A DNA stretch of 64,000 nt from contig CAJNOJ010000318.1 in assembly GCA_905250025.1 (NCBI GenBank), positions 47,676-111,675 of the forward strand. Reading direction: 5' to 3'. Positions 3,001 through 58,989 of the stretch are shown piece by piece. A model generated the notes under the pieces. The model was not told the origin of the DNA. It saw only the letters and a program-made list of their open reading frames with translations, and made no database searches. Position 1 is the stretch's first letter. Each line of letters begins with the position of its first letter. The DNA comes from Adineta ricciae (Eukaryota > Rotifera > Eurotatoria > Adinetida > Adinetidae). A program made the translations under genes and the position numbers.

Positions 3001-5003
3001 CAATTTCCTGGCAAAAGGAGATTTGAATATGAGATTGGTTAAGTGTTAATTACATCAACAAAGATCTCTATGAAGATTAAGCTTTATGTCACCTGTCCTT
3101 TTTCTTCTTATCTTCTGTTAATGATTTTTCTATTCTAGATACTCTGTTACTTCAAGTCTTTATTATTTATATCAACTACAAGACGTGCTCATACAGAAGT
3201 CACTCGACGAAATCAATTAGTTAGAAATTTCTCTCTCTCTCTCTCTCCCATATAGAACTCGTCAACAGCAACCATTTTCCTCAGGCTGCATGAACACATT
3301 ATTAAAAAAAAAAACGGTTACTTTCTCGTTCATCATCCATTTGCATTTACTTGTTTTCTCATAATGTATATTAAACGAGAGTGAAGAACACGCACGTGTG
3401 TATATGAAAGATGTATTAAATCACAGTGATTGATCATTATCAACGACAAATCTCTATGGAATTGGCATCACAATTGTTGACTGTTGTTCGGAATACAACA
3501 GAAAATTTCATTTCGAAAGTTACTGGGTAAGAATATTTACTGTTTGAATTTCGTTTAGAAACAAATTTATTATTAATTCTTCTTGAAATTTTTCTCAAAT
3601 TAAGTAGGAGTATCAAACATTTCTTTTTCCATACATTAAACATTTAATTATCCTTTAAAGTATTTTCCGATCCATTAACTTCTCGACTCTCGTTTTTTTT
3701 CTTCAAAACGTTCGTAGTTTTATTTGCTAAAAGAAAACAAAATTTTCTATCAATATTTGAGATTCATTTATTTATGATGATGAACACCTTTATTTGATGT
3801 TTTATATCGTTCGCTGAATCATCTATGGCTTTTTGTCGTTTCTTTCTTTTTTTCTCATTATTATCAAAATAGCCTGTTTGACTACGAGAGAGAAAGAAAG
3901 AATGTTTCAAAACAATATGAGCTCTCTTTTAGTACTTGTCTCGGATTACATTGCCGTTTTACTTGTTTCCGTCTCAGTTTTTTTTTTATATATTCAAAGA
4001 AGAAGAAGAAAAATAGTCGATCTACTCAAATTCCCAGAATAAGGCCAACAGCAATTGTTAATTAGAGGAGATTTTTTTCAGTCTGATGAAGGAAAAGATC
4101 GCAACAACGAAAATCTCTTAGCTTGATGGTTGTTTTTAGGAATCTAATGCGCAAATGATGTTTGTTTTTAGCGATCGAGATTCGATGTGAGAAAGAAAAT
4201 GAAACATGAACAAAAACAAAGTGTTTTCAACTAGAAAATCGAAGAAAATTCAATAGATTTTCATATTTCCGTTAAGAAATGAAGGATTCAACGAAAAAGA
4301 AACGCCTAAAATTACACTTGAAGACATTTTTATTTCATAAGGGAAATCAACAAGCATGAGATATTCACATACACACAAATCTAACATGAAATTCTATATC
4401 TTCTGAACAGAATAACAATCTTATCTATTCGCATTCTCTTCAACAAGATTTTTCTTCCAAAATAAAACTTCTCGATATGAACAAATTGAAAACAATCTTT
4501 TGAAACACCTAAGTACTATTGATTCTGACAGGAAGNAATTACACTTGAAGACATTTTTATTTCATAAGGGAAATCAACAAGCATGAGATATTCACATACA
4601 CACAAATCTAACATGAAATTCTATATCTTCTGAAGAGAATAACAATCTTATCTATTCTCATTCTCTTCAACAAGATTTTTCTTCCAAAATAAAACTTCTC
4701 GATATGAACAAATTGAAAACAATCTTTTGAAACACCTAAGTACTATTGATTCTGACAGGAAGTTACCATTTGTCATCGAAGTTATCAAAAGTATCTCATA
4801 GAATTACAATTCTTTTCCTTCTCCTCCTACACTTCTTTAGCAAAAAAATGTCGCGACTTGTCTTTGTCCATGTCGAAAATAAACGATTCTGTCAAATAAA
4901 AGAATACATAATCAAAGAGAAACTGAGAACAATACAAAATGAATCGATTTTTCTATGTTTGAGAAAAGTCATCTCAAGAGATTTGTCCAAACATTGAATA
5001 ACA
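1..5003. other. Gene-free AT-rich stretch
   Basis: I see no supported gene on either strand. Open frames are short (under about 95 codons), made of T-rich or A-rich low-complexity codons, and lack any recognisable domain. Short CT-rich simple repeats occur near 2090-2120 and 3230-3250. The only notable structure is the 226-bp repeat around the N at 4536, listed separately. The last few hundred bases should contain the promoter and 5' leader of the glutamate transporter gene that starts at 5004. Confidence 0.7.
4310..4762. repeat. 226-bp direct repeat split by one N
   Basis: Bases 4310-4535 and 4537-4762 are the same 226-bp sequence, with only two mismatches that I can find (C/G in the gaacag/gaagag word and G/C in the attcgc/attctc word). 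They are separated by a single N at 4536. A lone N exactly between two near-identical copies is typical of an assembly join where two overlapping contig ends, possibly two haplotypes, were placed in tandem rather than merged. A true tandem duplication is possible but less likely. Confidence 0.85.
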
Positions 5004-23746: not shown

Positions 23747-24025
23747 ACCAGGACGATGCTTCCTGAAGCAGGATTCCAAGAATTTCCGACAAAATCCTTG
23801 AGGAAACTCGCCATTTCTGAACGGAACCCCGTCCGGAAAATGCCAGGGATCCGATGAAGAAATGTGGTAACCGTTTTCGGCTACCGATTTTGACGTGTTC
23901 CTATCGGTTTCGATCCAAACCAGATAAATCCGATCACCGGATCCGTCCATCAGGAATACTGCTTCCATGAAATCTCCGGAATATCACGGACCCAACCGTT
24001 TCCGTGCCGGATTGTTCGACCTGGG
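23747..24025. mobile_element. GC-rich inverted-end element, copy 1 (279 bp)
   Basis: Starts with (C)CCAGGAC and ends with CCTGGG, flanked on both sides by TA (23745-23746 and 24026-24027), which suggests a 2-bp TA target duplication as made by Tc1/mariner-type transposases. The interior is far more GC-rich than its surroundings and full of CCGGAT/GGATCC words. It encodes nothing. Its left 80 bp and right 35 bp match the copy at 44887-45000, which lacks the middle. This is best read as a non-autonomous DNA element (MITE). Confidence 0.7.
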
Positions 24026-24115
24026 TAAAAATCAAACGATAGCTGAAATATATTGGCAGTTTAAAAAAAAAATTAACTAGACACAATCTTTTCCTAATAA
24101 TCTCTACTAAAAAAG

Positions 24116-24188
24116 CGACCCTGGCAGGAGTTGAACCTGCAATCTTCCGATCCGAAGTCGGACGCCTTAGCCATTAGGCCACAAGGCC
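24116..24188 (-). tRNA. tRNA-Arg (anticodon TCG), copy 1
   Basis: On the minus strand the 73 nt fold as a full cloverleaf: acceptor arm GGCCTTG with CAGGGTC, D arm GCCT/AGGC, anticodon arm TCCGA/TCGGA with loop CTTCGGA (anticodon TCG), T arm GCAGG/CCTGC. Internal promoter B-box is GGTTCAACTCC, one base from consensus. No intron. A run of six Ts follows on the minus strand, a normal RNA polymerase III terminator. It reads arginine CGA codons. Confidence 0.95.
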
Positions 24189-24816
24189 GATGTATGTTCA
24201 ACAAGTCTAAAACAATCTAATTAGTTCAATTTATATCTAGATGAGGATACACTTTGTATCTACGAAATATAACTCCTCTTATAGATACTTTATCATTTAT
24301 TGTCAAGTGTGCCTCAAAATAAATGAATAGTTTGGTGATTGTTTCTCTTTGTAGAAATATAGAATAATTTCTTACGAAGTGTAAGTTCTTTCTATAATAT
24401 CTCCATTTTCTACATTTGGTATATCTTATACATCTGATGAGACTGAAGAAGTTTTCCCAAGATCGTACGATTCGTGATGACAATTGCCATCTACAGGACG
24501 TTTGTGTGAAATAGATCTATACCTGCAGTCGTGAGTAATTTGATTGATCATATGATATCAGAAATTCATGGTAAGACGAGGAAAATTATGTTAAAAAATC
24601 AAAGATGATAATGTTTAAATAAAGAGACAACAAACAGATGGACCTGTATTGCGTTGACAATTCAACTAAATTTTTTCCAATCGATCTTTTCCTGAATTCA
24701 GTGAAATTCACTTAAAAATAAATATTTCATACAAATGTAGTTGATATTTTCGATACTCGAGCTGAATTCATCAGTCAACATTATTTTTAAAAGATTAGAA
24801 AAAAAACGAAAAAAAG
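24189..24816. other. Spacer between the two tRNA genes
   Basis: AT-rich, with no coding frame that I can support. Apart from the tRNA bodies and a few adjoining bases, this spacer does not resemble the flanks of the second tRNA. Confidence 0.6.
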
Positions 24817-24889
24817 CGACCCTGGCAGGAGTTGAACCTGCAATCTTCCGATCCGAAGTCGGACGCCTTAGCCATTAGGCCACAAGGCC
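24817..24889 (-). tRNA. tRNA-Arg (anticodon TCG), copy 2
   Basis: Base-for-base identical to the copy at 24116-24188 and on the same strand, about 0.7 kb away. It has the same cloverleaf, TCG anticodon and T-run terminator (seven Ts on the minus strand). Both are probably functional. Confidence 0.95.
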
Positions 24890-27436: not shown

Positions 27437-29060
27437 ATGTCCACTGCCGCTTCAATCGAAACCAATGCACCGGAAAAAGCGATTCATCGCATCAAAGCAC
27501 AATCCGATGAAGAACGTTCACAAATCATCATCGATGTTTTCGTGAAATATTTTGGAGATGGAATCAAAGCTAATCCAGCTGCATTTCGCGGTCGATTTCG
27601 AAAAATGGCTGCAACACCATTTAACTTCTATCGTGGCTCAGCACTTTTGTTCTATCAAGATCTCAAAGTCGATCAGGATCAATGGATCAATGCCAATCCA
27701 GCAGCGGGAAACATCTTCATTCATGTGAGCTATTTCTGTCACACTTCGTCTCGTTTTTATTCTTCTCTGTGTGTAGGGCGATCTACATGCTGAAAACTTT
27801 GGCACCTATCTGGACAATCACGGCATCTTGAATTTTGATGTGAATGACTTCGATGAAGGATATTGTGGACCATTCACATGGGATGTCAAACGTCTTCTGG
27901 CATCATTGAACTTGGTTGCACACAGTAAAGGCTTTTCTGATGCTGAGATCGAAGAAATCCTTCGAACTTGTGCACAAGCCTATGTAAAACAAGTCGAAGC
28001 ATTTTGTGAACATCCAGAACAGGAGTTTTCATTGACACTGAAAACAACTAGTGGCAAGATTAAGAAGATTCTGAACGAAACACGTGTGAAATCGCATGTG
28101 GAACATTTGAACACGATGACAGTGATTGAAGATTATGATCGACGATTCATTCGATCGAAAATGATCAAAGACGTCGACGAAAATCTACGAGCACAAATCA
28201 CCCAAGTATAGCGATCGTGCTTGATTGAATGTAGTCGAATCAAATGATTTTTCTGTTTATAGGCTTTCGATGATTACGTAAGAACAATTCCTGAGTACAA
28301 GAAAAAGGGCAGTAAAACATGGGAGAGCTATACCTATAACATTAAGGATGTCGTTGCTCGATCATCACCTGGTATCGGATCAGCCGGCAAAGTTTCCTAT
28401 TCTATTCTTGTCGAAGGACCAACAGAAACACTAGAAAATGATATTGTTCTTTACATGAAACCAGCACAAAAGTCAGCCATCAGCTATGTCATTCACAATC
28501 CCGAACTAGAACAGTATTTTCAACATGATGGTCTTCGCACTGTGCTTTGTTCCTATGCAATGCAATCCGTCACACCTCAATGGTTGGGCTATACAACACT
28601 TGGGACTATCCCTTGTCTCGTTGATGAAGTCACCGCACACTCGGAAGATCTCGACTGGGATGACATCAATGATCTGAATGACATTCTCGAAGTTGTCACC
28701 TATCTTGGACGAGCGACAGGTGAGCAGTTATGTTTTGTCATCGAAATATTGTTGAGTTTGATTTAGCTAAGATTCACTGTGTTGCCGATTCTGATTGTGT
28801 GAACACACCGGGTGATGTATCTTGCTTACCTTTCTCAATTATTCCAACACATACGGAGAAAACCATTCGCGATGCCGTTGGAAGTGGCGAAGAAGAGTTT
28901 GTTAATGAAATGGTTGAATTTGGCATGGTGAGATGATTAAACAGATGTATTGTAGTGATGAAATTGTGTTCTTTGTTTGTAGTTGTATGGTAAACTGGTT
29001 CGTCGAGATCATCAACTATTCTTCGAAGCATTTCGCAACAAGCATATTCCTGGTCTTTAA
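27437..29060 (+). CDS. DUF2252 kinase-like protein
   Basis: Exons 27437-27724, 27777-28205, 28263-28719, 28767-28927, 28983-29060 join in phase to 470 residues. DUF2252 proteins have a phosphotransferase (aminoglycoside-kinase-like) fold; substrates are generally unknown. Visible motifs are FRGRFRKMAATPFNFYRGS near residue 57, the catalytic-loop motif HGDLHAENFG spanning exons 1-2 near residue 96, and the metal-binding-type NFDVNDFDEG near residue 115, followed by GPFTWDVKRLLASL. The family is common in bacteria and fungi and sparse in animals, so an old horizontal transfer followed by intron gain is plausible, but I cannot test it here. The start at 27437 is the first ATG after a good acceptor; the ATG at 27246 leads out of frame. 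Poly-A signal at 29135-29140. Confidence 0.85.
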
Positions 29061-38100: not shown

Positions 38101-41100
38101 TACGTCAGTTTCATATCTTCGTACCACGTGATGTGGAATCGGAGCAAATTCAACGACGACGAAATCCCATAATTCAACAACAAAATTTACTCAATCTTAA
38201 AGTTTGTATTTGTGTTTGTTTGAACCGAATGAAAAAGTTATCAGTTATTTTAGATTATCATCGCTGGTGCATTTTATCCGAATTTTTATATTCGTGAACC
38301 GATTCAACCGGAAGCTGTGGATCGAGAACTGTCTTCGAAAGATCCCTTGAGAACAATTATGGTAAAACAAAGTTTTCTATCTCTCGAAATCTCATTGTTT
38401 TTCTTTTCGTTTAGCTTCGTAATGTTCCCTTAAATGAAGGAATTTTATATCGAAATCAAATCGAACAACAACTAAAGACTTTAGTCGATGTTGAAGATAT
38501 GAAAATTACATTTGAAAATACCAAGTAAGTCTCTTTGACAATCTCGATTCAAGTATTCTATTTCTTTAATAGAGCATTAGTAGAATTTGCTTCTCCACAC
38601 TCCACACGTCAACTTGTGAATCCATCTGAATTACCAATTGATCAAATTGTTACATCGACAACTTCACATACAAATATTCTCCCAGCTGTTTATTTTGCTG
38701 TTAAAGCGAGAATGACAAATCACAAAATAATTCTTCAGACATTCGAACGATCAGCTGCATTGCAACGTGTCGAACGTCTTCGTCTATACATGTCCGGTGT
38801 TGATATTCAAGATCAAATGTTTGATCGTGAACGAGATCTGTTTGAAGAACATCGCGATGCTTTGCTTCATCTAGCTCAACGGCAAAGTAAAAGGATAAAA
38901 TCAATGAAAACTTCAATAAATTTTTGTAAATGATTTCAGCAACAATATATTCATTACCACAACAACGATTGCCTGATATAAAATGTCAATATATAACAAT
39001 AAATGTTTCAACTGTAGTCGATGTTAATCATTTTTGGGCACAATATGCTGATCGAGAAAGCAATGCACAAATGAAACAAATCAACGAGATGTTATCACGT
39101 TCATTAACACGTTTGGCAGCAACATCTGTGGAAATTGGAATGATGTGTGCTGCACCATTCGCTCTCGTCTCACCACGAACAACAACACCTTCAAATAACG
39201 AAAATCAACAAATTGTTAAACGATACGAATATTATCGAGCGAGAATTACACATCGTATTGATAATGTGACTGTCGAAGTCTTCTTTGTTGATTGGGGAAA
39301 TACTGAACATGTTCCGATCGATCAACGTAAGTTTGAAATCAATACAGAAACATAGAATCTCTTGTTTTCCCTTCATTGTTAGTACGTATTCTCGAACCAA
39401 CATTATTGAAAATGGCTCCACTTGCGTTCGAGTGTCAATTATGGTCCATTCGACCTAATGTTGCACGTTATCCTTCGAACAATTGGCCTGTTCCAGCATT
39501 AAACTATGTCTGTTCGCTTATTCTCGAACGACAAGTGGAAGCAGAGATCAAAGCAGTTGCACGAAATATCGTCAAATGTGATATTCTATTAGACATCCAA
39601 TCAACCCGATCGCATCAACATTACAATGAAATGGGACGAATGACTCTTCGACAAAGTTTGATTCAAAAGGGTTTTGCTGAAACGGCAAATGAAGAACATG
39701 TCTTTGAAGTAATTTTCAACAAAATGAAGAAAAAAGAGCACTCTTTTTCACTGATTTTTGTAGCATGATTATCGAATACGTCGTGATGCTCAACGTTTTA
39801 TTAGTCATTCAAACGATCTATCATCAACAACTGATCCAAGTAACACATCGCCACAGATTATCGATGTACCCAAAGAACTATGTGAAGTTTATGAACGAAA
39901 GGAAATTGGTCAACCTGTGACATTAACTGGTGAATGGAAAATCAAGGGAGACGATCGAAGTAAACATGTATGTTTTTCTTTTCGTAGGTCCATACTCACC
40001 GTTAGAAGCCAATCATTCATCATGTCATTATGCAACGAAAATGCGACGTGTTCAGATCGATGGCGATTCGATCAACTCTGTTGGTTTAGAAGAAGAACAA
40101 CATTGTAATTATCGTCGTTTACTTGTCTCGTATGGTGTTCATCTTTCACAAACACGACAAATTGTTTCACTCCGTCATACAACATTGATGCCTTCGATCC
40201 GTGGTCTACCCGCACTAATTGCTATGATATTTGCACCAACGATTGAATTGAGGTAGAAGAAAATGATGTGTTAATTCGGAAATATCTTGTTTTTTCTTTG
40301 TAGACTTGATGAAGAAGGTCAAATGAAAACTGGTGTTCTCTGTGGTTTAGGTTTCAATCCAGTTACAAACACTTCTCTTTATCCTGATCACGATATCGAC
40401 ATTGGATTCGATGTCCAAATATCGACTGAAGATCTTGTTCGAGTAAGTATCTTATTTGGCGATGTTTTATTTTGTAAACGTTTTCATGCAGATCAACGAA
40501 ATTCGCAAACAAATGAATTTAGCATTGTACAGTGCTGAATCTGCTGGAAATAGAGATTTGATGCGATCGGTTCGACGAATCATTTGTACGGAATTACAAA
40601 AGTTAGCTTTTTATTTATCTCGTTTGATGTTAAATCGAAAGTGATTCTCTGAAATCGTAGATTACTTGAGGCAAAACGACCACCAAGTCGAAACAATTAT
40701 TTTGGAACATTTCAATGGAACAGGGTAAGAGTGATTTTGATACAATAGCTCTTTGTTATACCCTGAAATTCTTTATCTCTAGATAAATCCGGATGATCGT
40801 GTTCCGAAAATGGCTGAAGATGTTTCACCTGATCATCTTCGATTGTTTCCACTTCATGATGATGTGATTACACGTACAGTCGAAATCGATGACGAATATC
40901 GTCTGAAAATGATGTATCATCTAAGATGGCTACGAGAAAAGGCGACAATGTTAGTCTCATTTTACTTTGATGATTCTTCTCTACGTTGTTTTTGTTCTTT
41001 TAATTTTAGCACAACATTTATATGCCAAGTTACTTGTGAACTATGTGATATGGATTTTAATTACACATCAGATTTATTTGCTCATTTATCATCAAGTCAA

Positions 41101-42249: not shown

Positions 42250-42700
42250 TAAACTGTTCCAGGTTGGTGGACTTTATGAATATCGATCAGTCGTACACAT
42301 ACATCACACAGGGCAGTGGTTGATGATAAACCATTTGAATGACTAATAAATCGTTGGACACCAGGACGGATTCGATAATTTTCCTACAATACTAAACAAA
42401 GAAAGAATGAAAACATTTTTAGGAACGCAAATATCTCGCTTGAAAAACGTGTTTATCATTTGCTGTTTCAGCGAAACCTTTCTGAATCAAACTTTGTCGA
42501 AGAGTCATTCGCCTCATTACATTATAATGTTGATGCAATCAAGTTGATTGACTATCTAAGATAACATCACATTTGATGATATTTTGTGCAGTAGCTTTGA
42601 TGGCACCTTCAACTTAGCATTCAGCAACAAGTCAACCACCGTAGTTCTATGGTTGAGCTAGCCAAAAATAATGAATTGGTTGTTCCCAAACGTCTAAATA
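42250..42700 (-). pseudogene. Decayed inverted fragment of TDRD9 (Tudor-region exons 16-17)
   Basis: On the minus strand this region aligns with TDRD9 exons 16 and 17 (39520-39900). Near-matching blocks include GCATCAACATTA.AATG, ATGACTCTTCGACAAAG, TTTGATTCA.AA.GGTTT, and CGATTTATTAGTCATTCAAA against CGTTTTATTAGTCATTCAAA. Sequence in the position of the parent intron is present but diverged, so this is a DNA copy rather than a processed one. The frame is broken: for example, the codons equal to parental TRSHQHYNEMGR include stops (TGA and TAA on the minus strand). Only about 450 bp of the 6-kb gene is represented. It lies about 1.1 kb from the parent's stop codon, in opposite orientation. Confidence 0.8.
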
Positions 42701-44886: not shown

Positions 44887-45000
44887 CCCAGGACAACGGT
44901 TCCTGAAGCAGGATTCCATGAATTTCCGACAAAATCCCTGAGGAAACTCATCATTTCTGAGCGGAACCAGCCGTTTCCGTGCCGGATTGTTCGACCTGGG
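44887..45000. mobile_element. GC-rich inverted-end element, copy 4 (114 bp, internally deleted)
   Basis: Begins CCCAGGACAACGGTTCCTGA and ends CGGATTGTTCGACCTGGG. Its two halves match the two ends of the 279-bp copy at 23747-24025, so it is the same element with the middle removed. It sits inside coding exon 3 of the coiled-coil gene. The two frames of the host gene re-align if 116 bases (114 plus a 2-bp target duplication, TG left and CG right) are taken as inserted. Confidence 0.75.
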
Positions 45001-49130: not shown

Positions 49131-50108
49131 ATGATGGTGTCTGTTCCACAAACAAGTCGATCATATCTTTTCAAAAGTTTTGTTTTACTCATTGCTTCCT
49201 TGTTGATATATTTTTTCATGTTTAAACCATCCAAAAATCGGATTGGTCTGTCAACAACTTCATCCTCACCCACACCCTCATCGATTCATTTAGTAACGGG
49301 TTTACTTGTCAACAGTGAGCACGCTTGGAATAAAAACGATGATCGTAAAAATGAAAGTGGTTCTTGGCTATTAAATCCATTCTTCGATCGTCTCAATAAA
49401 ACTGTTTACATTTCAGATGTTTTAATAACAGAGAAAAATATCGTTTCTTCCGTAATATTAAATCGATATGGAACACAAACGTGGCAAAACTATCTTTTAA
49501 AATCTTTATCAAATCGAGATGATATTGATCTAAGACCATTAGCTCAATATAAAAAAAGTCAAGAATGTCCGTATTATTTGACATATATTATCGATCATTA
49601 TTACAATCTACCCGAGATAATTCTCTTTTCTCATGGTCGTCCGCAGGTTCATAACCCACACATTCTTAAACATTGGTCATGGTTTATTGATCGAGTACAA
49701 CAAGACATCGATCATCAATTTTTCAATGCCTCTGTCGGATTTCTCAGTTCTAATTGTGGTATCTATGTCAAAAGATTCATACGAAGTCGTCCTATTCTTG
49801 ATTTACTTGGCTATAATCGATCAATGAATCCATTCGCGAATCAAATTCGAGCATTATCTGTGGGCACTTATTGTTGTGCACAATTTATCGTTCATCGTTC
49901 TCGTATTTTACAACATTCGATCTCATTTTGGCGTTTGGCCTTGAAAATCTCTATCGACATGAACGATTGTTCCCATTTTGAGCACTTATGGCACATATTC
50001 TTCGGTGAATCTGATGAACTTGACCCAAAGAAAAGTCTTGCTGTATGGTATGAAGATGCACATCCTCATTTCAATGAATATTGCCAAATAAAATTTCTTG
50101 GCGAATAG
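49131..50108 (+). CDS. DUF3431 type II membrane protein (glycosyltransferase-like)
   Basis: Single-exon frame of 325 residues. A membrane anchor lies at about 14-31 (FKSFVLLIASLLIYFFMF), followed by a Ser/Thr/Pro-rich stem, so it should face the Golgi lumen or outside. The body matches the DUF3431 pattern: CPYYLTYIIDHYYNLPEIIL, then FSHGRPQVHNPHIL, and near the end GTYCCAQFIVHRSRILQHSI before WRLAL, resembling nucleotide-sugar transferase folds. DUF3431 is known mainly from fungi with scattered cases elsewhere. The substrate is unknown. The start at 49131 is the first of two Met codons. AATAAA lies inside the coding end (50089-50094), and the next gene's stop is only 36 bp away on the other strand. 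Confidence 0.75.
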   Translation: MMVSVPQTSRSYLFKSFVLLIASLLIYFFMFKPSKNRIGLSTTSSSPTPSSIHLVTGLLVNSEHAWNKNDDRKNESGSWLLNPFFDRLNKTVYISDVLITEKNIVSSVILNRYGTQTWQNYLLKSLSNRDDIDLRPLAQYKKSQECPYYLTYIIDHYYNLPEIILFSHGRPQVHNPHILKHWSWFIDRVQQDIDHQFFNASVGFLSSNCGIYVKRFIRSRPILDLLGYNRSMNPFANQIRALSVGTYCCAQFIVHRSRILQHSISFWRLALKISIDMNDCSHFEHLWHIFFGESDELDPKKSLAVWYEDAHPHFNEYCQIKFLGE

Positions 50109-50144: not shown

Positions 50145-52925
50145 TCAGAAAAAAACATTTTTTAGTAAAAGTAAAAGTAGAAAATTTGAAGAGATACATT
50201 TCCCAGTCGACACACTGCCAGATGTTGTTTGTAATAAAACATTTTCATCAATAACAACTTTAACTGATTCCCAATGATGTAAATTATCTTCTTCATTCGA
50301 TAACATATCTTTTGTACAATATTCATTCTCTGTTCCACCATTATGACAATTTTGCTCAGCAGATTTCATTTCTTCAGACGAATTCAGTTCGTTCTTAATC
50401 GTAGAATCGAACATATCGTCAAACGAATAATGAAATAAAGATGAATTTCTTGAAACACGCCACGATTGTCCATATTCAAATAACGTTTGTTCATCACTTT
50501 CATGAATTGATATTCTTGTACCATTTGGAAATGTTAAACCATTGACATCACCTAAGAGACCATAGGATGGAGTAGATAATTTGTTGAATTTCTCTCGTCG
50601 AACTAATGTTTCTAGATCAAAAAAGTCGAATGTTGGACGAATGGTTACACGAAGTCGAAAATGAGTTGTTGGAAAAGAGATTTTAAATGCTCCATTTGCT
50701 TTCCGTTTAATTTTGATAAACTCATCTTCATAGATCAACACTGCTACGGCAAATTCTTCGTGAGGTACTTCGATCAATTTGGTATCGATTCGAATCTCAC
50801 AAGATTGATATTTTGAGAATAATTCAAATTGAACACGTCGTTTTCCGTGTAAAAATCCAATAACAAAGGCTTCAATTCCAACATTTCCATCATTTTCATT
50901 CGATGAAAGACGGATTTGGATTTCTTGTCCATTAAAATCTGGTAAAGCTAATAAAGTAAATTCACCTTGTCCTCGAAAGGCATAAACGCCTCCATTCAAA
51001 GTTGCAAAATACGGATCTCCATGTTTCTCGATCGATTCCGATTCGAAATCTTCGCATCGTCCTGCAGGTCGATATTTATAATACTCTTTACACATTTCTT
51101 CACTAATCAACAGACTTCGACAACACGACCAATAAGAAAGAAAATCGGAAAAGAAATGTCCGAACATACTTAGACTTTTCTCCAACCAACTGTTGGCGTC
51201 CGGTGAGACAACATCTAACGTTCCAGCGCCTTCATTTCCTTGTTCAATAAACTTTCCATGTTCATCGTAACAACATTGTGCACCAGCCCAAGTCGTGTCC
51301 GATTTTTTCCGATAACAACCTCGTGCTTTTCGATGGTATGTACAGGTTTTTTCGATTGGTTTTCTTGCGTCACATCCTTCATCGATTCGAAATCCGTGAA
51401 ATTCTTCTGGCCAAGGTTGTGTTGGCATCTGACAAGCACAAACAGGAACTTGTTCGAGATATTGCCGAGGATCTGTTTGAAGTAATAACCAAGCTGGACA
51501 ATATGCTGCATTCAATGACGTGGCAGCAGTGAAGATTTTCGCACCGACGAACAGAGCTGAACGAAGCCAACCGGGTTTATGTTTCATTTCGAAGGAAATT
51601 TGTAGAGCATGAACACGATCGTTTGGATCAGTGTTGACTGAGAAAAGACTATCGTAACGAACCGTTAGATTTCCTATCGATGAAAGATTAAGGTAACCTA
51701 AACCTAAGTCAATCTTTTGCCGAGTACGATTGTAAAGTGTTTGATTGTTCGACGAGAATTGCGTGGCATAATCATAAATAACAATTTTAAAAAGATACTT
51801 TTTCGTAATTTCATTCGATTGAAATTCCAGAATTAACTCTTCGTTATTCGGATCAGCTATTTGATGTGTTAAATTGATATAATTCTTCAAAATTAATTCA
51901 CCATGATCTTCAGGAACATGAGCAAGAAAAGTCGTCGTATCAACAAGTTTGTTCTCTTCATTATCAAATAATTCTATTTTGATTTTTCCACTATCCATTA
52001 ACATTGGCATTGTACAAACAATATAAAGTGAATTTAATACGCGACAATCATCTACGACATGATTATCAACCCGAATTTCATATGTCGATCGATTAAAACA
52101 AATTCCATGTAAACGAAACTCATATCCACCATAGATCGAACCACGAAATGGAGAAACTTGTAAACCAGTTGATGTTTCACATTGAATATCATTGACATGT
52201 CCGGTCGTATGGAAAATGAATTGACCTGGAATGCCAATGTTGGAATCATTAACAATACTAAGAATTTGTGGTGAAAGTGATTTTTTTAATTGATAATAAT
52301 TAACATTATCACCCGCATTGAATCCAATTCGAGCGTGATTACCAGTTGAATCTTGTGACCATTCTAATTGATGATAAGTAAATAATGTAAATGAATAAAA
52401 TCCGTTGGTTGTTAAGATAGCTTGGTATGTATTTCTATTGATTTCGTTTTTTATATCAGGGAGATCGTACCAAGTGACAACAAACGCCCACAACATTCGT
52501 TGAGCAGCTAACTTAGGAAAGCCAGTTCGAAGAATTTTTGTTATTTGATAAAGAGTCTGGGGTTCGGTTTTTAAAAGAATTTCTCGGTAGAAAATGTTCT
52601 TTAATGTCTCATGTGTAAAATTTGTGTTGATCCAAAACGGAGCCACACAAACTAAATCTTGAAATGGAAATGGATCTGATGATTTGTATGACAACGAACA
52701 TGTTTCATTTCCAAACATAATTAAACCATGACTTGAGATACGAAGTTCATCATAAAATTTGTTGAAGAATGAATACCGAACAGATAAAGAGATTGACTCA
52801 GTGACGTAATTGAGATCATTTTCTAAACTTTTATCATTATGTTCAATGCCGAATGGAACAAAATTCTTTATATCGACGCAATAAATTAAATATAAGAGAT
52901 GAAACAATAAATAAAGTCTAAACAT
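50145..52925 (-). CDS. Mesh/SUSD2-like secreted adhesion protein (NIDO-TIG-AMOP-VWD)
   Basis: Uninterrupted frame of 926 residues with a signal peptide (MFRLYLLFHLLYLIYCVDI). Domain order: NIDO (about 60-230, VCVAPFWINTNFTHETL, ARIGFNAGDNVNYYQL), an IPT/TIG domain (about 250-330, SPFRGSIYGGYEFRLHGICF), a cysteine-rich AMOP domain (about 475-600, CPAWLLLQTDPRQYLEQVPV through GAQCCYDEHGKF), and a VWD domain (about 640-800) ending with YGLLGDVNG. This is the architecture of Mesh, SUSD2 and mucin-4 relatives, surface proteins of epithelia. The usual GDPH autocleavage site in the VWD start is GDPY here. There is no sushi or EGF domain and no clear transmembrane helix; the short hydrophobic end (NFLLLLLL) could be a lipid-anchor signal. 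Lack of introns is unusual among its neighbours. Confidence 0.85.
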   Translation of the reverse strand: MFRLYLLFHLLYLIYCVDIKNFVPFGIEHNDKSLENDLNYVTESISLSVRYSFFNKFYDELRISSHGLIMFGNETCSLSYKSSDPFPFQDLVCVAPFWINTNFTHETLKNIFYREILLKTEPQTLYQITKILRTGFPKLAAQRMLWAFVVTWYDLPDIKNEINRNTYQAILTTNGFYSFTLFTYHQLEWSQDSTGNHARIGFNAGDNVNYYQLKKSLSPQILSIVNDSNIGIPGQFIFHTTGHVNDIQCETSTGLQVSPFRGSIYGGYEFRLHGICFNRSTYEIRVDNHVVDDCRVLNSLYIVCTMPMLMDSGKIKIELFDNEENKLVDTTTFLAHVPEDHGELILKNYINLTHQIADPNNEELILEFQSNEITKKYLFKIVIYDYATQFSSNNQTLYNRTRQKIDLGLGYLNLSSIGNLTVRYDSLFSVNTDPNDRVHALQISFEMKHKPGWLRSALFVGAKIFTAATSLNAAYCPAWLLLQTDPRQYLEQVPVCACQMPTQPWPEEFHGFRIDEGCDARKPIEKTCTYHRKARGCYRKKSDTTWAGAQCCYDEHGKFIEQGNEGAGTLDVVSPDANSWLEKSLSMFGHFFSDFLSYWSCCRSLLISEEMCKEYYKYRPAGRCEDFESESIEKHGDPYFATLNGGVYAFRGQGEFTLLALPDFNGQEIQIRLSSNENDGNVGIEAFVIGFLHGKRRVQFELFSKYQSCEIRIDTKLIEVPHEEFAVAVLIYEDEFIKIKRKANGAFKISFPTTHFRLRVTIRPTFDFFDLETLVRREKFNKLSTPSYGLLGDVNGLTFPNGTRISIHESDEQTLFEYGQSWRVSRNSSLFHYSFDDMFDSTIKNELNSSEEMKSAEQNCHNGGTENEYCTKDMLSNEEDNLHHWESVKVVIDENVLLQTTSGSVSTGKCISSNFLLLLLLKNVFF

Positions 52926-54614
52926 GGTCTTTGTATTGTGGATCGTGATAATATCATCGTCTTTATATACTTCTTATCAATGGGCGTGCTTGTGTAAACT
53001 TTTACCTTTATGTAATATTAATGTCCTGAAAATGAGTCATTATTTTCATGAATAAAATGAATGGTCATTGAGTGAAAATTCACTCGATAAACTTTGATAA
53101 ATGATGAAAAAAGTTTGAATTATCTATATTCTATGATAGCCAAAAGAGACACAAAGCAAGAATATTTTGAGAGGATTGTATGTTGATAAGCCACGCTTAA
53201 CTTGACACTGAGCAAAGAAAACGAATTCAAATTAGGAATTTGATCATATAACCAGTAAGAAAGCAACTAAATGACAAATATGTTCACATACAAAGGTTTA
53301 ATCGATTCGTCTCTGATTCTATGTCTATACATCTTCTTTCCTTCGCCTGTTCTCGATAGACGTACATTTCACATGACATAAGGACGACACAGAGAATCAA
53401 ACCTTTCATATACGTCAACTATCTCAGAGAAAACAGCGCATTTCATCGTCGAGAATAGATAATTGATATCACAATAAAAAATATCCTGGAGAGCTAGTTA
53501 TGCTCGTATGTGTATGTGTGTAGTATGGATGTAGACATAGCCCAATAACGCAAAAGAATCGTTATAGTCGCTCGTTCTGTCTTACTGCGTCGTTTATATA
53601 CTTCTATTACTAAAGATTATCATGCAAGAAGAGGAAAAAGATCAAGCACAGTTTTTGACTATTTAATGAATAGAGAGAAAGAGAATCCAATTTCTTTCAT
53701 ATTACTAATAAAAGAACAGCAAAAAAATCGCAAGAGTAAGTAAAATCATATCGACTAATGTGTTTTTCCTTGTTTAAGACAAGTGAATACTTTTCAATAT
53801 TTATTTCAACTATACAAAAATACTTTCAAAGAAGATCCTTATCATATTTGCTTTTTACAATTTGAATGTTGTCTAACGTAGATCCATTTGTTATTGTATA
53901 AAGGAACCAGCGTAACATTCTTTTTCTTCTCATTTTCAAACATAGAACATCCTAATAGTGAATAATAAAAGTGTCAACGAAATAACTTCAATATTTTTTC
54001 AATAATACACAAGACAGTAAAAACAATTGAAAGCGTTTCGACATGGTACGAAGTTATTGAAAGTAGAAAAGTCTGTCTTTTTTCCTTTAATAGACATCGG
54101 AAACTAATTGTCAAATGTCTTTCTTTAACATATCAAAAGAAAACGTTCTGCTTTGAGTGTTGAAAACATAAACTACATATATTGAGAAATTAATTTCTTG
54201 TTGGTTTGATCAGAAAGGTTGGATGAACATCAGTAGAAGAAAATCTCTCGACAAAATTTCAATAAAATAGCATCCGATGGAGAGTCTTCGACGTTAATTA
54301 CTTTTTCGTCTGTTACATAATCTTTACAAAGCAGCGTGTAGTCAGACACATTTTCATCTTTGAAAAGAATCCTTGTATAGATAAGAAGTTTTATGTCTTT
54401 TTCTCGTTCTGTTCCTTTTCTCTTTTTTTTTACTTATTTAAGAAGTTTTTTTCTTCATCACTCTAAGCCAGATTTCGCCACGTGACAAAGAGGAACAAAT
54501 AAATTTTCTTCTTCACGCATGCCATCTCTGTCAGACACTATATTCATAAAATACTTTACGATTCTTTCAGATTAAGCCTATGATCTATTTCTCAAAAAAT
54601 ATATTCGCATTTCA
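52926..54614. other. Intergenic, 1.7 kb
   Basis: Divergent promoters of the Mesh-like gene and GT31 copy A. AT-rich; no supported coding frame, RNA gene or repeat. Confidence 0.55.
52962..52969 (-). promoter_or_regulatory. TATA box of the Mesh-like gene
   Basis: On the minus strand the sequence reads GTATATAAAG about 37-45 bases ahead of the ATG at 52925, which supports that start and implies a very short leader. Confidence 0.45.
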
Positions 54615-55894
54615 ATGTCTTTTAAACAACTTTACATTCCGTTTTTGCGTCAATATCTACGATTTTCCTCATTGTCTATTAAACTTCTTCTATTCATAAC
54701 GATTTTAATATTTCTCATCGGCATCAAACAAATCTTTTCAAATAAAACTTCTTGGTGTAATCCAGAACAATCATTGTGGTGGTTTTGTCCATGGCCAGGA
54801 CCAGAAACAGTGTGCAGTTGGGACGAACATTTTTCCAAAGCAAATCCAAACAATCGGTATCGCTGTCCATTGATATACCGAACATTTTTATCTTCTTATT
54901 TATTATTAATTTCAGATCTCCAGCATTCTATCACAAAGCTCTTCGCTCTCTTTCAAAACGTCGTTCGTCTTTCCTCTTCAACAACTTAACTCTAACACAA
55001 TGTAACGAATCTTCTCTCGATTTACTCATTTTTATCATTTCAAAATGTTCTCACGGTTCCATTCGACAATCGATTCGACGAACCTGGGCTAATCAACACT
55101 TATTACAACAATTCTTTCCCGATCTTCACATCAAACTATTGTTTCTACTCGACAATGATCCACAATCGACACCAAAACTCATTCTTGAACATCAATTTTA
55201 TCAAGATCTCGTTCAAGTCACTAATCTTCCTGAACAGTATGACTATGTTACACAACGCGAATCAGCTCTCTACGAGTTCGTTGTCAGTCGTTGTCAACAA
55301 ACAAGATTTGTGTTCAAAACTGACGATGACATTTTCATCAACACAATTCTCCTATTATCAAAAGTTCGAACGTTGATGAACAATGTCGAAATGAAAGACA
55401 AAACGACAAAAAAGTATCTAATGTTTGGATTTCCAATCGAACATGGCCTAGTTGTTCGTCATAGTGCTGATCTAGTTGGACAACGATATGTGATCACAAA
55501 AGATGAATATTCATGTCCAAGATATCCCACATTTCTGTCCGGTTTTGGTTATTTGATGACTGTGGAAACATGTTCATTGTTGTTCGATGCTTATGTAAGT
55601 GATGAAAGACCATTTCTATTGTCCGATGTTTATTTCACTGGACTATTGGCTGAGATGATGCAGATTCCACGAATGAAGATCATTGAAAACGTGAACTATC
55701 GATATGAAAGTCAATGTAATGAAGAATTCTTTCGTGAGAAAGAGAACAGTGCATTGGCATGTGCAGCATCGAATGATCATTTTGATGTGAAACATTCGAA
55801 AGGTGGTGATCGAAGCTTGATGAATGACTACAATCGTTACTGGACAATGTTAATTGAACGACATCGTACATCTATGAATAGTAAAAGACGATAG
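54615..55894 (+). CDS. GT31 beta-1,3-glycosyltransferase, copy A
   Basis: Golgi type II enzyme of the beta-1,3-galactosyl/N-acetylglucosaminyltransferase family. Exons 54615-54856 and 54916-55894 give 406 residues. The N terminus has a membrane anchor (SIKLLLFITILIFLIGI), then a WWFCPWPGPETVCSWDEHF motif shared with copy B. The catalytic part has the family marks: SIRQSIRRTWAN, FVFKTDDDIFIN with the metal-binding DDD, YPTFLSGFGYLMT and LLSDVYFTGLLAE (the usual acidic EDVY motif is SDVY here). The acceptor sugar cannot be told from sequence. Exon 2 bases 54954-55852 are identical to copy B. AATAAA at 55918-55923. Confidence 0.9.
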
Positions 55895-56000
55895 ATTTTT
55901 TACAATTTGTGTAAGAAAATAAAATAGAAACTAATGTCAGTGTTAAGAATGACTCATATAATTACTGAAAGACTTTTGCTCTTGTGTGAAACTTTCTCCC

Positions 56001-56119
56001 TAGGGGTGGCACTTTATTTTTTTGGTAAAGTATGTCAACTTTACTTTATTCGGTAAAGCAAAGTATCTCGGCTTACTTTATTTTTTTCAAAGCGGAATAA
56101 AGTTAAAGTGCCACCCGTG
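56001..56119. mobile_element. hAT-type MITE, 119 bp
   Basis: Starts TAGGGGTGGCACTTTA and ends TTAAAGTGCCACCCGTG, a terminal inverted repeat of about 14 bp. It is flanked by TTTCTCCC (55993-56000) and TTTCTGCC (56120-56127), an 8-bp target duplication with one mismatch. The GGGTGGCA end and 8-bp duplication are typical of hAT elements. The interior is repeated ACTTTATT/GGTAAAG sequence with no coding capacity. Confidence 0.8.
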
Positions 56120-56377
56120 TTTCTGCCGTAATATCTTTCTTATTGTTTAATGTATAATTGACATTGAAGAAAGGCATGAATGTACTCGTCGATGGATTGA
56201 CGCGCGTTGCGTGCTTGTCAACGGTAGGAATTGAATCCACCAATAATGTTGTGGTCGATTGGTGATTTATTAATGAATAACACGAAAATTCTCCGACTCT
56301 TGTTTATTGCGCTTTGCATTACACACCTATTGTTTCTCAAGCATCACCAAATGAATCTGCATTATTCCAATTAGAAG

Positions 56378-56598
56378 AAACCCCCTCCCCAGAATAGAAG
56401 ATTCACTCCAAGGTGAAAAGTTTTAGTGAAAACTAATAGTTCGATTTACCTTGAGCGGGCGCAAACTAGTTAAAAATAAAAGAGTAAACACGTCTCTGTC
56501 AACTAAAGCAACAACGAACCTCGACCCGAGCATATTTCCGGAGTTATAGCTTGTTGAACAGAGGCGACTCGAGAGTCTTCTATTCTGGGGAGGGGTTT
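56378..56598. mobile_element. Small inverted-repeat element, 221 bp
   Basis: The left end AAACCCCCTCCCCAGAATAG and the right end CTATTCTGGGGAGGGGTTT are inverted copies for about 23 bp, differing by one extra C. The interior (about 175 bp) is unrelated to the ends and non-coding. Target duplication is uncertain; TTAG occurs at both sides (56371-56374, 56597-56600). A MITE of unknown superfamily. Confidence 0.7.
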
Positions 56599-57542
56599 AG
56601 CGTATCCTGGGTATATTCAGGGTACCGGATCTTCTGTGTGTCTAAAAAAGACGTCACGAAACACCGCGAGGCGTTTACTAATTCTTTTCATTCGTTATGT
56701 TTTGTCATACACTGCTGTTAATGGTATAATAAAAAAGCCTATATTCATGACTGTTAAGATTCAATGATGAAAGAGAAAAAAAAAGAATTCTTCTGGTAAC
56801 TAAACAACTTTTTTTTATATTTCTTCTGTCTATACAAATGTTTTGAAAAGAGTAAAAAAAGTTCATAGAACGATGAAAATTCTTCTTCTTCTTCTTCTTC
56901 CACTCAAAGCATTCTCCCATTTCGAACAATTCAGAACTCACGTGAATACTTTCTTCGATTTTAGACGCGCACCTATGAAACTACATGATCACGTTGTATA
57001 AAATGAATACATTAACGTATGGCAATGAAGTGTAATAAATCGTAACGTTACCGATAAGGGCTAATGAAACGATCGATATTTTTTCTCTCTTGACATAAAA
57101 GGTCCGAGTCACAACATGAGATAGAGAGAACTTTTCTATCTGAATTTTCATTCTCAATACCCATCATACTTCTCTAGACGACCTTTTTTCTTCGAGCGCA
57201 TGAGTTTCATGAGCAAGAATATCCTGTCGTATGGACACATCATGAGAAAGGTCTTATTCAAGCGCATGACGAAAAAAATTCGACTAGGGTTGTTCTTTGG
57301 TATTTACTCTATTACTTCAACGACACCAATTTTCTTTTTCCTTTTAGTTCAATATTTACTTTCGATGAAAAAGCGGTTTCTCTACTCGCTTATTTAACAT
57401 TTAATTTCGCGTATGAATATCTTATTTCGTTGCCATCAGAACAATGTCGAACAAACGCTAACGTGATATCTACGGCGTTCGTTGTTCTCCGGTGTCCATG
57501 AATGTTTTTAATCAGAGGAGAAACAGAAAGTTTTTTATAACA

Positions 57543-58989
57543 ATGTCATTTTATTTCAATCAACGTTATCGAAGCTTCTCATTATTGAAATTCGTTGTCT
57601 TAGTCATTTCTCTGCTGCTTTTACTTGTTTATTTATTTATTTTCAATTCTTCCGACCGAATATGCGATCCTGAAGAGCATCTTTGGTGGTTTTGTCCATG
57701 GCCAGATCCTAAAACAACAGTTTGTCCATGGAACGATCATTTTTCTACCTTATCAAATAAGATTCGGTAAATTTTCTCGTTTGTTTCCATTTAATTCAAT
57801 CCATATAGGCAGCCATTACATGAAAATGCAACCGCCGCCTACATGGGAAACGATAAATTTCTTGTTTACATCGTAAATTTAAAAACAATCATAAGTCAGC
57901 ACTAGTAGTAATGAAAAACTAGTATTACCCCTAAATTTCACTTTTAACCACACCATATCACACTCAAAGTTTTCATTCTTCAATCAATCATGAATTGATA
58001 TCTCTTCTAGGACGCCTCAGGCTTATCACAAAGTTCTTCGCTCTCTTCCAAAACGTCGTTCGTCTTTCCTCTTCAACAACTTAACTCTAACACAATGTAA
58101 CGAATCTTCTCTCGATTTACTCATTTTTATCATTTCAAAATGTTCTCACGGTTCCATTCGACAATCGATTCGACGAACCTGGGCTAATCAACACTTATTA
58201 CAACAATTCTTTCCCGATCTTCACATCAAACTATTGTTTCTACTCGACAATGATCCACAATCGACACCAAAACTCATTCTTGAACATCAATTTTATCAAG
58301 ATCTCGTTCAAGTCACTAATCTTCCTGAACAGTATGACTATGTTACACAACGCGAATCAGCTCTCTACGAGTTCGTTGTCAGTCGTTGTCAACAAACAAG
58401 ATTTGTGTTCAAAACTGACGATGACATTTTCATCAACACAATTCTCCTATTATCAAAAGTTCGAACGTTGATGAACAATGTCGAAATGAAAGACAAAACG
58501 ACAAAAAAGTATCTAATGTTTGGATTTCCAATCGAACATGGCCTAGTTGTTCGTCATAGTGCTGATCTAGTTGGACAACGATATGTGATCACAAAAGATG
58601 AATATTCATGTCCAAGATATCCCACATTTCTGTCCGGTTTTGGTTATTTGATGACTGTGGAAACATGTTCATTGTTGTTCGATGCTTATGTAAGTGATGA
58701 AAGACCATTTCTATTGTCCGATGTTTATTTCACTGGACTATTGGCTGAGATGATGCAGATTCCACGAATGAAGATCATTGAAAACGTGAACTATCGATAT
58801 GAAAGTCAATGTAATGAAGAATTCTTTCGTGAGAAAGAGAACAGTGCATTGGCATGTGCAGCATCGAATGATCATTTTGATGTGAAACATTCGAAAGGTG
58901 GTGATCGAAGCTTGATGAATGACTACAATCGTTACTGGACAATGTTATCGGATCAATATGATGTGCTAAGAAATGACAATGTCAAATAG
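57543..58989 (+). CDS. GT31 beta-1,3-glycosyltransferase, copy B
   Basis: Tandem paralogue of copy A. Exons 57543-57766 and 58011-58989 give 400 residues; exon 2 has the same length as in copy A. The N terminus differs (anchor LLKFVVLVISLLLLLVYLFI) but keeps a LWWFCPWPDPKTTVCPW motif, and its intron is 244 nt rather than 59 nt. The catalytic part is identical to copy A up to the last 14 codons, which differ completely (SDQYDVLRNDNVK against IERHRTSMNSKRR). An upstream in-frame ATG at 57492 is possible, but 57543 gives a start like that of copy A (MSF). Confidence 0.88.

Follow-up and report, generated by a model that had tools for sequence, protein, structure and literature searches.

How can two neighbouring genes, whose beginnings and ends have diverged from each other, come to share most of an exon base for base? 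This question is raised by two genes that lie in tandem on the + strand of a window of 64 kb (the whole stretch of DNA that was analysed), each of which carries, in its exon 2, one copy of a long tract of identical sequence. The GC content of the window is 33.8 percent, which falls within the range of 30.8–35.6 percent given for four bdelloids in the consulted section of PMC5916493, and which is no test of a bdelloid origin.

The Two Genes and Their Predicted Products

The models of both genes are predictions based on GT–AG sites and open frames alone, and each comprises two exons. Exon 1 of gene 1 (54615–54856) starts at the first in-frame ATG after a stop at 54573 and ends at a GT donor; it is followed by a GT–AG intron of 59 nt (54857–54915) and, according to the splicing model, by an exon 2 of 979 nt including the stop (54916–55894), giving a spliced frame of 1221 nt without an internal stop. 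The corresponding parts of gene 2 are exon 1 (57543–57766), a GT–AG intron of 244 nt (57767–58010) and an exon 2 that is likewise modelled with 979 nt including the stop (58011–58989), and the spliced frame of 1203 nt has no internal stop either. The start of gene 2 was set at 57543 because both proteins then begin with MSF; the in-frame ATG at 57498 is an alternative. The predicted proteins have 406 residues (gene 1) and 400 residues (gene 2), and in both cases exon 1 would encode a signal-anchor and a stem with the motif WWFCPWP.

Both genes match the Pfam family Galactosyl_T (PF01762), with E values of 1.5e-25 for gene 1 (query: the unspliced frame 54776–55894) and 9.9e-26 for gene 2 (query: 58036–58989) and scores of 90.6 and 91.2 bits, respectively, the curated cut-off being 23. 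We take PF01762 to correspond to GT31, and the assignment of the pair to GT31 in the original prediction holds. The domain (55064–55675 in gene 1 and 58159–58770 in gene 2, both on the + strand) lies entirely within the tract. When the protein encoded by the tract was compared with the PDB, beta-1,3-galactosyltransferase 5 (8zwp) was matched with an E value of 1e-15, and the KTDDD of the tract protein aligned with KTDSD of that enzyme and with KGDDD of B3GNT2; the acidic triplet in KTDDD is presumably metal-binding. Over the whole length of the proteins, 19-residue windows with a hydropathy above 1.6 occur only at starts 14–25 in gene 1 and 9–22 in gene 2. With this single strongly hydrophobic stretch near the N-terminus, both products are likely to be enzymes that reside in the Golgi as type II membrane proteins.

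Upstream of the pair are two single-exon frames, one on the + strand encoding a DUF3431 protein (49131–50108; E 1.4e-16) and one on the − strand with NIDO and AMOP domains (50145–52925). A further frame, at 28263–28763, matches DUF2252 (E 3.5e-24), a family listed as conserved among bacteria; it is possibly an acquired gene, and the match would be in keeping with a genome that contains acquired genes, without being proof.

The Identical Tract

Base-by-base comparison of 54954–55852 with 58049–58947, both on the + strand, gives 899 identical bases out of 899, as had been claimed from first inspection of the sequence, and in the assembly the next base on either side differs. The two copies start 3,095 bases apart. 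A comparison of the window with itself by blastn (E up to 1e-4, dust on) joined them into a single match of 924 bases (54929–55852 and 58024–58947) at 99.78 percent, which is the longest match listed; next in rank are a pair of 226 bp at 99 percent and then an inverted pair (39533–39833 and 42314–42615) with 75 percent identity across 310 aligned positions. No third copy of the tract is listed in this comparison of the window at E values up to 1e-4. A search for relatives by pattern matching gave 15 matches in viral_contigs and 37 in genome_contigs, none of which encodes a relative; these are sets of viruses and prokaryotes, in which animal relatives are not expected.

Other repeats in the window include a dispersed 81-bp repeat (23748–23828 and 44888–44968, 90 percent identical), close to which a second piece also matches (23987–24025 and 44962–45000), and two tRNA-Arg(TCG) genes on the − strand (24115–24188 and 24816–24889), whose enclosing 89-bp stretches differ at one base.

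A run of 899 bases is far above what would be expected from the divergence of the two paralogues. If the 37 mismatches of exon 2 were placed randomly, a clean run of this length would arise with a probability of at most about 4e-43, by which chance is ruled out as the cause of the identity.

Synonymous Sites and Constraint on the Protein

Two old copies might be kept alike without any exchange if purifying selection acted strongly on the catalytic domain, and the tract does cover the whole of the Pfam domain. What such selection leaves unexplained is the state of the codons. Where the two proteins have the same residue (Met and Trp excluded), the codon is also the same at 288 of 288 positions within the tract, as against 19 of 38 outside it, i.e., 11 of 28 in exon 1, seven of nine at the start of exon 2 and one of one in the tail. 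Fisher's test of tract versus outside gives a P of about 1e-20 with all flanks and of 4e-21 with exon 1 alone. There are about 190 synonymous sites in the tract and not one has changed; by the rule of three, their divergence is at most 1.6 percent (upper 95 percent bound). The proposal that the identity includes synonymous sites is thus borne out, protein constraint is no explanation for it, and the probability that selection of this kind produced the tract is negligible. Rather, the lack of change at these sites indicates that an exchange or a copying took place recently, taking the sequence as assembled.

Divergence Outside the Tract

To the left of the tract, homology between the two genes is clear. 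Of the 78 residues that align before the tract (up to residue 85 of gene 1), 35 are identical, and the first exons, which agree at 140 of 216 aligned bases, are diverged yet homologous. The intron has the same position and phase in both genes, with the two lengths given above (59 versus 244 nt). Exon 1 and the intron had been said to differ, and they do. A global alignment of the introns, with a figure of 52 out of 59 aligned positions, was discarded as evidence of likeness because 59 nt placed freely within 244 nt make such a figure meaningless. By their sequences, the upstream parts mark genes 1 and 2 as old paralogues.

To the right of the tract, each gene has a private C-terminal tail of 13 codons and a stop, at 55853–55894 in gene 1 and 58948–58989 in gene 2 (both on the + strand). 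One residue of the 13 is common to both tails, and 14 of 39 bases are identical, for which shuffling gave P values of 0.08 (residues) and 0.22 (bases). Scored with BLOSUM62 at nine offsets, the tails fit best in register, with +3, the other eight offsets giving −6 to −19. As the shuffles are weak, homology on this side is suggested only. The original prediction had the last 42 coding bases differing between the genes; their divergence holds, whereas the stretch in fact consists of 39 coding bases and the stop. Beyond the genes, agreement is 0.23–0.26 in the 3′ flanks and 0.31–0.34 in the 5′ flanks, which we judge to be near the level of unrelated AT-rich DNA.

Between the two genes there are two elements with inverted repeats. 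The first (56004–56116) lies about 110 bp past gene 1 and has 18-bp inverted repeats that are 89 percent complementary; the second (56379–56598) is 220 bp long, has 26-bp terminal inverted repeats that are 92 percent complementary, and is a candidate for a small non-autonomous DNA transposon. Neither element lies within the tract or flanks it.

The Borders of the Tract

Counted from the beginning of exon 2, ten mismatches fall at offsets 0–12, two more at 23 and 37, and none until 937, from which the tails diverge at once. The right border is thus abrupt. On the left, 12 of the 38 exon-2 bases preceding the tract differ, ten of them in the first 13 bases. The 25 bases adjoining the tract on this side (54929–54953 and 58024–58048, on the + strand) match at 23 positions; both differences alter an amino acid, and all seven shared residues have unchanged codons. 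If two differences were distributed at random over 924 bases, both would hit the first 25 with a probability of about 7e-4. Sharp borders had been proposed for both ends, and this description is right for the right-hand end and too strong for the left. Such a pattern, with two differences in the 25 bases followed by an unbroken run of 899, could be the patchy end of a conversion, and a tract that begins at 54954 beside a conserved piece fits equally.

The form of the right border bears on another explanation, namely a recent partial duplication, by which most of exon 2 was copied and inserted non-homologously into the other gene. Such an insertion would suit the abrupt right border, the weak homology of the tails (P 0.08 and 0.22) and 3′ flanks that look unrelated (0.23–0.26). 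It does not suit the left side, where the genes are homologous in exon 1 and at the beginning of exon 2, nor the fact that the position and phase of the intron, the length of exon 2 and the position of the stop are the same in both genes. An insertion would have to restore all of these matching features, and a partial duplication is therefore disfavoured and judged highly improbable. Exon 2 has the same length of 979 nt in both genes and is in register from acceptor to stop, which favours a homologous replacement over the insertion of a partial copy.

The Assembly as a Possible Source of Identity

It could also be that the identity is a product of the assembly, i.e., that the two copies are similar without being identical and that one collapsed sequence was placed twice by a short-read assembler or a gap filler. 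Platanus, SSPACE and GapFiller were used for some published bdelloid drafts, according to the part of PMC5916493 that was available, although the pipeline behind this window may differ. The only N in the window (4536) sits between stretches of 226 bp with two differences (within 4310–4762), which resemble unmerged contig ends; these are probably overlapping contig ends joined by scaffolding, a false duplication. Such a joint points to a draft assembly where repeats may be collapsed, by which small differences between the copies could be hidden. Near the tract, in contrast, there is no N, and both copies are situated in open frames with distinct flanks. Furthermore, a collapse would need copies that were already near-identical. 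As this presupposes near-identity beside unlike flanks, the weak form of this explanation still needs a recent conversion, and the exactness of the identity could be partly a product of the assembly. In the strong form, reads of one copy would have been used in error to fill the other, or one copy would be absent from the genome, and conversion as an explanation would then fall. Taken as a whole, an origin in the assembly is considered unlikely.

Probable Gene Conversion Between the Paralogues

The best explanation for the tract is a recent interlocus (ectopic) gene conversion between two old tandem paralogues of the GT31 type, which on the comparisons made here is quite probable. The original prediction had offered a recent conversion or a recent partial copy; synonymous identity and register speak for the first of these, and the homology of exon 1 and intron speaks against the second. 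A conversion of this kind might have proceeded as follows. A break or nick would arise in exon 2 of one copy and would be repaired with the neighbouring gene, 3.1 kb away, or with its sister-chromatid or homologous copy, as the template. About 0.9 kb would thereby be overwritten, comprising the catalytic domain in full and the larger portion of the C-terminal part, and the recipient would retain its own exon 1, its intron, approximately the first 13 bases of exon 2 and the last 39 coding bases. We infer the repair mechanism, the number of events (one), the direction and the source (the neighbouring gene instead of a third copy). An unseen third copy could have converted both genes. For the direction, the GC content at third codon positions (GC3) is uninformative as to the donor, with 0.32 in the tract and 0.29 and 0.31 upstream.

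A point against conversion concerns similarity: in the consulted portion of PMC3924818 it is stated to take place chiefly between sequences that are more than 80 percent identical, the rate under this level being low, and the catalytic parts may or may not have reached it beforehand.

Comparison with Published Cases

The available text of the review PMC3966223 contains comparable cases of neighbouring genes in Caenorhabditis elegans. The collagen genes col-12 and col-13 are in tandem, 1.8 kb apart, with reading frames that are 99.5 percent identical and flanks of extremely low similarity, and they are taken as an older duplication, in a passage about gene conversion. The pair described here resembles them in being a tandem pair with near-total identity beside unlike flanks, and differs from them in that the borders are inside the coding sequence, so that the ends of the proteins differ, and in that the identity is 100 percent as assembled. 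The genes fog-2 and ftr-1, in the same review, are likewise tandem neighbours with conversion tracts over part of the gene; these tracts, at 39 to 145 bp in its table, are unlike the 899 bases found here. For 7,829 pairs in C. elegans, conversion tracts of 12–2,958 bp with a mean of 117 are reported, the surviving ones cluster at 50–200, and long ones may be the sum of several short events (PMC3966223). Tandem pairs in the same orientation are among the published cases, and the present tract would lie within the published range, yet is long, and may thus represent several events. Closeness of the genes was favourable in C. elegans and had no such effect in a human study (PMC3966223).

In bdelloids, conversion has been proposed for collinear copies, former alleles or allelic regions, in the portions of PMC3464624, PMC6264785 and PMC7749112 that were consulted. 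The tract is similar to these cases of homogenisation, as both concern copies within one genome, and is unlike them in that the copies are tandem paralogues. Losses of repair genes have been suggested to favour exchange between divergent sequences (PMC6264785, in the same portion). The one use of "ectopic" in the part of PMC5916493 that was available refers to recombination of transposable elements. No paper matched a search for interlocus gene conversion in rotifers, and a case with tandem paralogues from this group may still be in print. The tract is a further case of a known kind of event.

Implications

It is tempting to suppose that in an ameiotic animal ectopic conversion keeps tandem catalytic modules identical, while selection keeps the anchors and tails distinct, perhaps resulting in one activity in different places; this is regarded as a long shot. 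Conversion between paralogues is known in meiotic organisms, such as C. elegans, and therefore says nothing on ameiotic life. The catalytic part of both genes is unfit for dating their duplication. The tract would be a clear trace of an exchange between tandem paralogues; were the host a bdelloid and were long reads to agree, a case with tandem paralogues would join the conversions between former alleles and collinear copies that are described in the consulted bdelloid literature.
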